Below, piece by piece: positions 280-53,861 of a DNA stretch of 64,000 nt. A program made the translations under genes and the position numbers. Within the stretch, counting starts at the first letter, position 1, and every line of letters begins with the position of its first letter. Below the pieces are notes generated by a model. That model searched no databases, was not told the DNA's origin, and was given only the letters and a program-made list of their open reading frames with translations. The DNA is taken from positions 186,001 to 250,000 of the forward strand of contig JAFCMP010000006.1 of NCBI GenBank assembly GCA_017506865.1. The letters run 5' to 3'. This DNA comes from Tribonema minus (taxonomy: Eukaryota > Sar > Xanthophyceae > Tribonematales > Tribonemataceae).

Positions 280-3200
280 CTGGATGACACAGCGCCGATG
301 CCGTCCTTGCCGTGGTTGATGACGTCATACTGCACAGCGGCGTGGTTGCCAAGCGGGTCGTCTGCCTGCACGTTGTTGGTGAAGCGCTGAGGCGTCTGCA
401 CAAAGGCCACCTTGGCCCAGCGGTAGCGCTGGCCGTCCGCGTCGAGTTCGAAGAAGTAGGGGACGGTGCGCTGTAGGAACTCCGGTTGAAGCTGGTGCCT
501 GCGTTTGCATGAAGGACGGGCGCGGAGGGGGTGGTTGGGGGGTGGTCAGCTGGTGAAAGGTGGCGTGTGGCTCACAGGCATCTGATGGGGCATACCACAC
601 TGCTGCGGCAAATGCAGTGACTGCGTGCGTGAGCGCTTGCGATGATGCGCAGGCGGACGTCGAGCCCAAGCCAGCACAGAGCAACTGTGGCTACGCTCTG
701 TGACAACACGCAGCAGCCCTCAGCACAGCATCTGTGGCGACGCTCAGCACGGGCGCAGCAACGCTCGGCACTGCACAGCATGACAGCGCTCAGCACAGGC
801 GCAGCAGCGCTCGGCGCATCACGGGCGCAGCACGCACCTGCAGTCGTTAACCACGACGATGGTGGAGCTGCCAATGAGCGGCGGCATGTTGGGGTAGTCC
901 AGCGCAAACAGCATGACAACGCTCAGCACAGGCGGCAGCAGCGCTCGGCGCATCACAAGCACGGCACGCACCTGCAGTCGTTGACCACAACGATGGTGGA
1001 GCTGCCGATGAGGGGGGGCATGTCGGGGTAGTCCAGCGCGAACAGCGCAGAGTTCATGTTGCCGGCCTTAGGGGACACCTTGGGGGTGCCTGCATCGCGG
1101 CGCGTGTAGTAGATGAGGGTGGGCAGCGCGACATTCGTGTTGAAGGTCTGGACATAGCCGGGCTCGATGGTCACGTTGCCCACATTCATGGCCTGGAGCA
1201 TGGAGTTGGCGGACGCCTGCGTGGTCTTCTTGCTGTTGCGCTTGACGTCCTGCTTGCCCTTGACCTGAGCGAGAGCAAAAGGAAGAGGGGGGGGGGGGGG
1301 TGAGCCAAGGCATAAGCTTGAGTGAACTGGTTTCATTCGTGGAATCGCAGCAACAGCCTGCCACTGAGTTGAGCAAGGATGCAGCCTGCAGCAGTAGCTT
1401 CCAGCACATCTCTGGCTCATTTGTCGTCAGGTTACACAACGACTTAGAGTTGTGATTAATGGCTGCAGGCGCCTACTGTGAAACCTGCACACACCGTGAG
1501 CTCGGATTGCCGCAGGGCTGTGGTCACCCCAGGGCTACAGCCTACAGACGCTGACTCACAATGGCAGCGGGCGTCTCGTCATTCGGGGCACTCCATGCTC
1601 GCACGCCCTCAAAGGGCACAACCGCAACTTCAACCTATTCCCATACACAGGCACAACCCCAACTTCAACTGACATCCCGCGCAGAGCTCCGCCAGGCCAA
1701 ACATGCTCACGGCAGCCGTCGCCTCCTCCAGTTCCTCCACGTGTTTCAGCTTCAACTTGAAATTGAACTGACCTGCCCAGACACGCTCATGGCTCCGTCG
1801 AAGCCTCCTCCTCATGTACACCCAACTTCACACATATGATACAACTTCAACTAAACCCCGCAAATGATACAACTTCAACTTGAACTTACCCCAGCGGGCA
1901 GCTCCTCGAGGCCGAACACGCTCATGGCTACAGCCTCTGTGGAAGCCTCCTCCTCCATGTACTCCAGGAGGCGGCACGCCTGGTTCAGGAAGTGGTCGTT
2001 GTAGAGGTGCTTGCGCGCGTAGCCGCCACCCGTCTTCCACCACTCGTAGAAGCCCTTGGCGGTGATGGCGTGTACGCCCTCGGCCTGTGCGATGCGCAGC
2101 AGCAGTTGCGTGTCAGAGCGTTGTCACGATGAGTGCCCATGTATACATGCGTGTTCAATGAAGAGTGTATGAGACGCAGCTTCAGCGTGGCTGCCGCTTC
2201 TCTTTACCCCTCGCAGGAGCCCTTGGTGATTCGCGTCAGGGCATTGATGTACAGAATGAGCAAGCTGGCGCGCGCCTGGCGCATGTGCGCGTACACAGCG
2301 GCGGCCCATGTACACATTGAATATATCCAATACACATGGGGACAAAAAGCTCACCTGGAGGATGCTCAGCACGTTGGGGTGGCGCGCGATGCATGAAATA
2401 CGCACACACTACCCAAGTATCATAATATCCATGTATGTATGCCAAGGAGGCAGCGCTCACCTGGAGGATGCTCAGCACGTTGGGGTGGCGCACGATGGTG
2501 GCGAGCGCGTACACAGCGGCGGCCATGTTGAGCACGCCCTTGCGGCGCTTCTCGTCCAGCACCACGACGCGCTGCGCCGCGCACTTCTCCACGCTCGTGT
2601 CCCAGCCGCGCAGCGAGACAACGCCGAGAAGCGCCTGCAGTTCAAGTTGAAGTTGAATGGTCAACGATCAGGGCCAACAAATAATGTCAAGCACTTTGAT
2701 TCTGTACTTCTCCACGCATGTGTCGCAGCCGCGCAGCTAGACGACGCCCAGGAGCGCCTGCAGTTTAAGTTGAAGTTGCATCATCAATGGTCAGGACACA
2801 GAGGTGAGGGCAAGCGCTTGATATAGTTGTCCAATACTTGTCCACGATAGCGACTCAGCCGCGCAGCTAGATGATAGTTCAAGTTGAAGTTGGATCGCAT
2901 GCAGTTCAAGCTGAATTTGCTTCGGATAGACAAGGGTTGAGGCTGAGGCCTGGGGGGGGGGGGCGGAAGGGGGGTCGCTCCATGCATCAGGCAGCAACGC
3001 ACTGCTCTTTGCGTTTGAGAGGTCGAGAACCGCACTGTACTCTTCAAGTTGAGGTTGTATCACAAACAGTGGGACGCTCCACTCTCACCTTCATGACGAC
3101 GTCGAGCTTCTCTCCGTTGGTGGGCAGGAGGATGGCGACGCGGCTGTTGTAGCCGACGGAGTCGTCTTCGCGCACAATGTCGTCCATGGTGAGCCTGACG

Positions 3201-52400: not shown

Positions 52401-53861
52401 ACTAGGCCTTACTCTCATGCCCAACCACGGTCACAGCCTGGCGTGCTTCTCTGGTTCTCGACACATTTATGTCCGTAGGAAACAAAAAACAAAACAAGAA
52501 GAAAATGGAACGAGCAAGCGCAGTGCTTTCTTTGTACTGACACAGCTGACGCACCTGACCCTGGCTTTCAAGGTGAATGACGCTGACGATTGCAGCACTG
52601 GTTGAGGCGTCAAGAACTGCCATTGACATTCTTGAATGGCCACCCATCCCTGAAGCTGGTGCAGGTACTGGGTGGACTGTATACCCACCATTAAGTTCAA
52701 TTCAAGCCCATTCAGGACCATCTGTAGACTTAGCAATTTTTAGTCTACACTTATCTGGAGCGGCTTCAATTCTGGCCCGCTGTCGGACCTGGCACTGCGA
52801 AATGCCAAAGCATGCACTCTGATGTGGCATGCAAGGAGCTGCTCCTATCACAGCTCTGACCACTCCAGCGTTAATCTACCGATGACACAGTCTGCGAGCC
52901 TTCAAGTTGCCTCCCTGCTACGCGATGTTGTTGGCTGTACTCGCATAATTTCATCATTTGAAATTTCAAGTTGATAATGAGGTAACGTCACCGGTGAATT
53001 TTTTTCTCAACAACGCTTTTTGGAAAAAGTAGAAAATCTGCATCATCTCATGCGAAAGCATCAAACTCATGCTAGTGCAACCAAACACTTCAAGTTGCTT
53101 TGTACGTACCTAACCATATTCATCTCAGAAATTCAACCATTCATGGAGTCGCATTTATGGTGGGCTCCCAAGTTTATGTTTAGCAGGGGAGGGGCCTCGG
53201 TCAGCTATTATCTTTGTTTCGAATAGCTCCAACCAAGGCAATTAATCAAATTTTTAATAGGCTCTGACTTCAACGATGTGATACTTTTATTACCAGGTCG
53301 ATAGTCTGGCTAGCATTTTTCGTCATTTGTTTGCATTCATCCTTGAGCATTCTGGTATCAACATTTGCTGCTGCTGCGGCAGTCAACTTCTGAGAAGGCT
53401 GGGCTGTCACGAATTGCAAGTCCTGCAGCAGAGGGCAACGTGGCCGTTTGAACATGCAATTGTGGCACCGCTTCTGCTTCCGCGACACCTAATCACTGCG
53501 TGCCCTCACCTACCATGTCCCTTGCAGCTGGTACAAGGCCTCGATCGGCGCTGCCCTCGTTCTGCCGCCCAACGGTTTTGTCGTCGGGCATGGCCCGGGC
53601 ATGCACTACTCTCTGTGGCTCGACAACGATCAGGACGGTTGCCCGGCCCCTGGCCAGACCTCCAAGGGGTGGCTGGCCACCGTGAACGACAGCGAATGGG
53701 CAGGCGCTCGGGTCGATCGGATCCAGCCGTACCCAGCTGATGGGACCCTCAAGTTTCACATCCCGCAGGGGGAGCACACTGTGACCCTGTGCTTCGAGGG
53801 CAGCGTTGGGCACCTCAACCTGTTCTACCTGCACCTGCAGTGGGCGGGCTTTAACGCGTGA
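37454..53861 (+). CDS. secreted multicopper oxidase (laccase-like) fused to a CBM6-like carbohydrate-binding module
   Basis: Copper oxidase that would oxidise a phenolic, metal or sugar-linked substrate with O2, fused to a sugar-binding module. Exons: 37454-37609, 38185-38442, 39523-39704, 41378-41589, 42695-42843, 44554-44810, 46868-47098, 48620-48915, 49983-50125, 51053-51276 and 53528-53861. Together they make exactly 814 codons including TGA. Exon 1 ends in a hydrophobic stretch ([15 protein letters not shown]), a likely signal peptide or anchor. Copper ligand motifs are NLHLHGMH near 167, GTHLYHPH near 206, HPFHTH at 502-507 and [12 protein letters not shown] near 562, so all four T1/T2/T3 clusters are present. 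Residues from about 629 ([27 protein letters not shown]) look like a CBM6. Exon 4 appears to use a GC donor. The first exon is less certain than the rest. Confidence 0.82.
42955..43015 (+). repeat. copy of the 3' edge of multicopper oxidase exon 5 and intron start
   Basis: CCATTCAACGGCATGACCTT, then CCAAGTTTGTCATGACAAGA, repeats the true junction at 42824-42860. In the copy the donor is shifted by loss of a G. Confidence 0.85.
43927..44010 (+). repeat. dispersed repeat, diverged copy
   Basis: GTACTTTTTATTAATTCTCG, then CTCAGGGCGCAAAAAAGCC, then TGGAATCTATA, in multicopper oxidase intron 5. Related to copies at 10.7 and 34.9 kb. Confidence 0.7.
44811..45064 (+). repeat. four copies of the 3' edge of multicopper oxidase exon 6 with its donor
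   Basis: The junction GGCGCCGAGCACTTTATCAG then GTCAGTT (exon end 44810) recurs with ends at 44877, 44938, 44999 and 45064. The period is 61-67 bp. Copies read CAG/GTCAGT, CAG/GTCAAT, CAG/GCCACT and CAG/GTGCTT. Confidence 0.92.
46531..46770 (+). repeat. two upstream copies of the 5' edge of multicopper oxidase exon 7
   Basis: TGCAG followed by a TGGCGTTTGCCGG-like start and GATGCCGCCATGCAGCAGAC lies at the true exon (46868). Copies start near 46536 and 46660. One copy contains a stop soon after; the other stays open past GGGCAGATG. Confidence 0.85.
47101..47224 (+). repeat. perfect 62-bp tandem duplication after multicopper oxidase exon 7
   Basis: AAGTAGCATGCAGCAGGCGA and so on is repeated without visible mismatch at 47101 and 47163, starting at the donor. 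A third partial copy (CATGCAGCAGGCGAGCAGGC) lies near 47298. Confidence 0.92.
48456..48517 (-). repeat. interstitial telomere-type array, inverted orientation
   Basis: About ten CCCTAA-type units with two variants (CCCTTACCCC), in multicopper oxidase intron 7. TTAGGG reads on the minus strand, opposite to the arrays at 22-31 kb. Confidence 0.9.

Follow-up and report, generated by a model that had tools for sequence, protein, structure and literature searches.

Intron gain by tandem duplication (PMC3443670, PMC4974935) and exon duplication (PMC6071210) are established processes. One example is the potato RdRp gene, where an intron-exon stretch was duplicated and where an 83 base pair (bp) duplication within an intron of the same gene left the structure unchanged (PMC4974935). 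Introner elements are documented in Amoebophrya, in a paper that also names Micromonas pusilla and Aureococcus anophagefferens (PMC7789003). Here we describe tandem copies of exon edges inside the introns of the xanthophycean Tribonema minus. The starting point is a stretch of 64,000 nucleotides (contig JAFCMP010000006.1, positions 186,001 to 250,000; G000:C6:186001-250000), hereafter called the window, in which a cellulose-synthase-like gene lies on the minus strand, and an OTUD5-like (OTU) gene and a multicopper oxidase gene lie on the plus strand. The genome searched comprises 158.18 Mb in 554 contigs. Splice-site duplication is the subject of classic work, reportedly by Reed and Maniatis.

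Junction copies in independently chosen genes

The phenomenon is genome-wide: about a quarter of the junctions examined carry silent copies in their own intron. To sample beyond the window we used kinesin, TCP-1, and adaptin loci, located in this genome with Pfam. Each exon tail (at most 60 bp) was searched against the downstream intron, and each exon head against the upstream intron. Of the 70 donors 24 had a copy, and of the 72 acceptors 12, with kinesin and TCP-1 contributing 19/52 donors and 10/55 acceptors and adaptin 5/18 and 2/17, respectively. The reverse-strand and wrong-side-intron controls each gave 0/142 (0/107 for kinesin and TCP-1, 0/35 for adaptin), some of the wrong-side stretches being short and ending at the edge of the locus, and the shuffled-intron control gave 0/107 in kinesin and TCP-1. 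In the latter two families the donor scores separate into two well-spaced groups, and 9.4% of the 36-mers across their loci are locally copied, versus 0.016% in Markov-resampled sequence. The original prediction had named occurrence at chance level elsewhere in the genome as the outcome that would speak against it; these frequencies and the empty controls show that chance is not the explanation. It had also placed the copies always on the intron side, and the controls bear this out. This side rule was tested on the independent genes rather than on the window because the window search covered each junction's own intron only.

The kinesin and TCP-1 sample used 97 of 188 matches (132 kinesin, 56 TCP-1). 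Exon-by-exon homology searches call fossil copies extra exons, which is a warning for annotation: six of the 97 matches (two on C51 and one each on C135, C5, C511, and C246) were recognized as copies and left out as exons. Junctions below a splice-score cut were excluded (8/60 donors and 13/68 acceptors in kinesin and TCP-1); in adaptin 22 of 27 matches entered, under the same cut. The junction search started 15-30 bases into the intron, so that units well below 60 bp could escape it.

Junction copies in the window

Copies were found at 13 of the 27 window junctions read, 9 of 14 donors and 4 of 13 acceptors (score of at least 36, own intron, same strand). Many junctions had been said to be copied in four genes, and this stands for the cellulose-synthase-like, OTU, and multicopper oxidase genes; the fourth, a SUKH gene, was not found. 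PF09346 has no match above its cutoff in the genome (a single match has E 3), this being the one SUKH family searched genome-wide, and no SUKH family appeared in the part of the window frames scanned.

The positions of the junctions have the following basis. In the cellulose-synthase-like gene, seven complete exons, together with an eighth represented by its tail, splice into one open frame of 508 amino acids (aa). Its label is weak: the Cellulose_synt match has E 1.8e-4 and 20.6 bits against a cutoff of 24.7, PDB cellulose synthases match the protein at E 0.02-0.7, and frame-by-frame scans gave no family match. Splicing of three OTU exons yields 122 aa that are colinear with human OTUD5 (E 3e-33). 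The multicopper oxidase gene has a PF07731 match (E 8e-8) at ~48669-48908, upstream of which its junctions were assigned by eye. The features below come from the junction search, Tandem Repeats Finder (TRF), and repeat families.

3717..3953, minus strand: third exon of the cellulose-synthase-like gene (true donor 3716; 508-aa spliced open reading frame)
3450..3676, minus strand: three donor-side copies of the third-exon tail, at 3628-3676, 3536-3603, and 3450-3489 (junction search; TRF 3436-3784)
2461..2634, minus strand: fifth exon of the cellulose-synthase-like gene (true acceptor 2634, true donor 2460; spliced open reading frame)
2706..2871, minus strand: two acceptor-side copies of the fifth-exon head, at 2706-2757 and 2836-2871 (junction search)
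2287..2391, minus strand: two donor-side copies of the fifth-exon tail, at 2355-2391 and 2287-2311 (junction search)
1781..1822, minus strand: donor-side copy of the sixth-exon tail of the cellulose-synthase-like gene (true donor 1889; junction search)
838..912, minus strand: donor-side copy of the seventh-exon tail of the same gene (true donor 971; unit ~134 bp; TRF and junction search)
12..214, minus strand: two donor-side copies of the eighth-exon tail of the same gene, at 104-214 and 12-46 (true donor 279; junction search)
24624..24722, plus strand: OTU (OTUD5-like) exon DGDGNCLFRAV...CVSFM (splicing and OTUD5 homology)
24011..24292, plus strand: acceptor-side copies of the head of OTU exon 24624..24722 (24011-24033 and 24271-24292 at a score of at least 36; more in repeat families)
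24807..25491, plus strand: six donor-side copies of the tail of OTU exon 24624..24722 (spacing ~124-134 bp; TRF, repeat families, and junction search)
26100..26237, plus strand: OTU exon RGDREHFQNY...NRPIE (splicing and OTUD5 homology)
26340..26702, plus strand: four donor-side copies of the tail of OTU exon 26100..26237 (repeat families and junction search)
29305..29433, plus strand: OTU exon VYVPERGLTPLN...DPSE (true donor 29434; splicing and OTUD5 homology)
28565..29220, plus strand: six acceptor-side copies of the head of OTU exon 29305..29433 (6/6 carry CAG at the acceptor place)
29618..29876, plus strand: two donor-side copies of the tail of OTU exon 29305..29433 (junction search)
44554..44810, plus strand: exon placed by eye in the multicopper oxidase gene
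44842..45057, plus strand: four donor-side copies of the tail of exon 44554..44810 (unit ~61 bp; TRF and junction search)
46868..47098, plus strand: next multicopper oxidase exon, read by eye
46543..46769, plus strand: two acceptor-side copies of the head of exon 46868..47098, at 46543-46614 and 46695-46769 (junction search)
47101..47226, plus strand: purely intronic 62-bp unit in two identical copies, beginning 2 bases inside the donor and not spanning the junction (TRF)
21617..21979, plus strand: purely intronic 52-bp array ending at the acceptor-like CAG of a candidate exon, the sequence after the CAG being absent from the copies (TRF)

The window also holds a PP2C gene, a long GCA repeat within open frames (36240-36573, TRF), and a retroelement-like gene, whose open frame of 2,969 aa (55047-63956, minus strand) has a reverse-transcriptase domain (PF00078, E 6e-7). 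A dispersed repeat at ~7307-8479 has many partial copies in the genome, with 65-97% identity among the matches listed, and a short dispersed element of ~128 bp at ~10674-10801 has many copies, mostly with 94-96% identity among the matches listed. The segments 39601-39666 and 41374-41512 lie 1.7 kb apart here, while their counterparts on C179 and C90 (71-82% identity) are 34 bp apart; they may mark a gene whose intron is long in the window and very small or absent on these two contigs. Satellite words TTGAAG/CTTCAA, often intronic, occur at 233, 239, 2647, 5130, 19145, 24096, 24331, 24569, 26279, and 29439. For this hexamer the result is one of abundance only, the reversed control being uninformative since the word is identical when read backwards. 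The sequence GTTGAAGTTGAAGTTG occurs at 889 exact sites genome-wide. Telomere-like TTAGGG/CCCTAA words are present at 48456-48517 and inside genes, including introns of genes other than these; of this kind, AGGGTTAGGG was found in 7 of 49 independent introns.

How the copies may have arisen

The copies span the unspliced donor in 19 and the unspliced acceptor in 11 of 60 introns (49 independent and 11 from the window), and a copy of the spliced exon-exon joint was found in none of the 60. Hence, their template is genomic DNA. Re-copying of spliced material, one of the causes originally proposed, is contradicted by this result. An origin from spliced RNA or its complementary DNA, or by repair on a spliced template, has nothing in its favor that we could find, is opposed by these junctions copied with the intron attached, and is almost certainly wrong. 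On R-loop-linked or transcription-linked slippage, the other kind of cause considered, the results speak neither way.

We consider it probable that the copies stem from neutral tandem duplication of unspliced genomic DNA along introns, in units of ~60-200 bp. Local duplications of this size would strike introns often and over their whole length, and the duplicated segment would sometimes include an exon edge, in which case the gene would survive only with the original outer splice site in use. The extra exon edge would turn into intron and the protein would be unaltered; repeated duplication would build small arrays, and the copies would thereafter decay roughly neutrally. Copied exon edges would be conspicuous because the true exon used for comparison is held fixed by selection. 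On the same reasoning, copies would always lie inside the intron because the protein comes through a junction-spanning duplication unchanged only when splicing keeps to the outer site. The side rule was at first taken as the sign of a special mechanism, and it would be expected of any surviving junction-spanning duplication. The outer sites appear to be those used, judging from protein homology and open frames: the cellulose-synthase-like frame and the OTU protein run unbroken across them in these two genes, and the copies lie inside an existing intron.

The rate of copying was measured in the 49 complete independent introns, with one-sided queries of 40 and 60 bp; introns shorter than 250 bp were excluded, and 6 of 21 added introns were dropped. 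Exon heads at acceptors were copied in 7 (40-bp) and 8 (60-bp) of the 49, intron edges in 5 and 7 at donors and in 7 and 5 at acceptors, and intron interior segments in 9-13%. When duplication was simulated as uniform, with copies decaying and exonic duplications selected against, exon-to-interior ratios were 1.2-1.5 (0.95-1.76 in smaller runs). Acceptors fit uniform duplication plus exon conservation. The nearest copy lies 62-199 bp away in 39 of 41 junction arrays (331 and 624 bp in the other two), successive junction spacings have a median of 125 bp (interquartile range 104-153), and arrays hold 1-7 copies beyond the original. The proposal that each junction seeds its own minisatellite is not supported by these counts: intron edges have copies in 5-7 of 49 introns per side, against 9-13% for the interior, and interior units are of similar size. 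In the survey of breakpoint signatures (microhomology or blunt), clean two-copy units at identities of at least 95% numbered three in 287 kb, too few young duplications to read one.

The copies decay roughly as neutral DNA, as measured with symmetric queries centered on the junction (101 copies at 41/134 junctions). True sequence and copy share an identity of 0.85-0.88 in the exon part and of 0.70-0.79 past intron base 6, near 0.87 squared. Among copies at donors (15 arrays) the identity is 0.71-0.87 in the exon part and 0.67-0.77 in the intron part; the corresponding values at acceptors (9 arrays) are 0.81-0.83 and 0.70-0.79. These values come close to those of a fixed exon whose copies decay freely. 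A strong exon-side conservation among copies (0.83 versus 0.65, in 18 of 19 arrays) would imply selection or re-copying; this candidate was rejected as mostly detection bias, since an intron-side query mirrored it and the symmetric query left an excess of ~0.08.

Several observations weigh against uniform, neutral duplication, and part of them would favor a process targeted at junctions, chiefly donors, in which duplications would be set off at the 5' splice site by some feature of splicing or of transcription there (an R-loop or a stalled polymerase). Exon tails at donors were copied in 15 of the 49 independent introns with both query lengths, where 13-18% are expected at a ratio of 1.4 (p 0.0009 at 40 bp, 0.018 at 60 bp), and donors exceed acceptors in the pooled genes (24/70 versus 12/72, Fisher p 0.020; for the 49 introns, p 0.09 and 0.15). 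This excess, about twofold over the uniform model and about twice the acceptors, draws on modest sample sizes and depends on the model, whose ratios of 1.2-1.5 could by simple reasoning reach ~2. The 11 window introns had been chosen for the feature, again with those shorter than 250 bp excluded; among them, donor exon tails are copied in 6 and donor intron heads in 4-5, versus 12-15% for the interior. These heads and the donor tails are the counts that would favor junction seeding. Copies are also denser in the three window genes, where 16%, 35%, and 12% of 36-mers have a nearby copy, than elsewhere in 1-54 kb (3%, a background that includes dispersed repeats and a probable further gene), and the process may therefore be tied to introns or genes. 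Interior offsets (median 152 bp) have a similar center and a longer tail than those at junctions (Kolmogorov-Smirnov p 0.07). However, targeting should raise copying on both sides of the donor, whereas the first 40-60 bp past it are copied no more often than the interior, and the acceptors show no excess. Targeting is a minority reading to which we assign a low probability. The other points opposed to neutral duplication concern the copies themselves: exon-side identity among them is ~0.08 higher, for which slight constraint, homogenization, or leftover detection bias are possible reasons, and donor copies are as strong as the true donor (median paired difference 0; 31/51 at or above it).

These last two points would also be in keeping with functional arrays of decoy or alternative splice sites, maintained by selection and giving alternative products or control of splicing. 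A further one is that GT or AG stands at the equivalent place (within 2 bases) in 89 of 101 copies, so that the claim that copies keep splice signals and reading frame held for the signals. It did not hold for the frame: use of the copy would keep frame in 21 of 89 cases (not above one third, p 0.056), be free of stops in 14 of 88, and satisfy both in 4 of 88. Moreover, splice dinucleotides are retained in copies (GT 50/65, AG 28/33; 98 of 108 copies used) at the rate of exon control pairs (46-53/65 and 24-28/33, respectively), which means that GT and AG are no better preserved than exon bases. At acceptors, the copies fall below the true site in strength (median -1.9 bits, 11/38 at or above it). 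The copies comprise exon edges only, and no usable whole exons were found among them. Selection for such arrays is improbable. Even less so do we favor a mobile element or introner family that captures exon edges, which has in its favor dispersed words such as the TTGAAG hexamers in introns. The copies adjoin their source, none is on the reverse strand, and the array at 24682-25382, the one searched genome-wide, matches only its own locus. As far as this single array goes, the prediction was right that the repeats are not one mobile family.

Under neutral duplication, splicing must pass over the copies. Splice sites may be paired across the exon, hiding the inner donor and acceptor copies: with exon-wise pairing, the nearest donor after an acceptor and the nearest acceptor before a donor would be the outer sites, and both kinds of copies would be ignored, while intron-wise pairing would instead favor the inner ones. 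Upstream acceptor copies are transcribed first, which could make acceptor arrays rarer and their sites weaker; weaker acceptors would also be expected from decay alone because the acceptor motif is longer. Exon length (median 214 bp in 46 exons; the independent introns have a median of 649 bp) is similar at junctions with and without copies (p 0.19, 46 exons), which leaves exon definition without support and adds to the points opposed to our preferred explanation. A more specific possibility, which we hold doubtful, is that duplication is tied to transcribed introns and biased to donors, and that equal-strength downstream donor copies are reliably ignored through exon-wise pairing. If so, the genome would offer a ready-made natural collection of experiments in splice-site competition. 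Since true and decoy donors of equal strength lie next to each other in many genes, RNA could reveal non-local determinants of site choice. Overall, the copies look like leftovers of ordinary short duplications skipped by splicing, rather than a designed system.

Comparison with known systems

Like intron gain by tandem duplication (PMC4974935, PMC3443670), the process described here is a local duplication of unspliced DNA that includes splice signals. Unlike it, an existing intron lengthens, the copied junctions are silent, and no new intron or exon arises as far as tested; the events are also frequent and often multi-copy. Tandem exon duplication, including that of mutually exclusive exons (PMC6071210), likewise duplicates an exon together with adjoining intron, but here only the edges are involved, the copies decay, and most would break the frame or meet a stop. 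Introner elements (PMC7789003) are also repeats at exon-intron boundaries in protists, with direct repeats that overlap the junctions. Their direct repeats measure 3-5 nt, whereas the units here are ~60-200 bp with tens of exon bases, form no family between loci (one array tested), and have no inverted copies. Intronic minisatellites share the tandem arrangement within introns, here with 1-7 copies beyond the original; they differ in that the present units are longer, diverged, and contain a splice junction and an exon edge.

Among the matches listed in our literature search, which left subscription literature mostly outside, we recognized no description of junction-spanning tandem copies throughout the introns of a genome. 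The process amounts to one route of intron lengthening, in which exon copies decay next to their source. In the papers covered, tandem duplication across junctions is treated case by case or in catalogs of gained introns, and here it is common in one genome. As far as the literature searched shows, what is new is the frequency and the outcome, namely copies that lie silent beside roughly one in four of the junctions examined.

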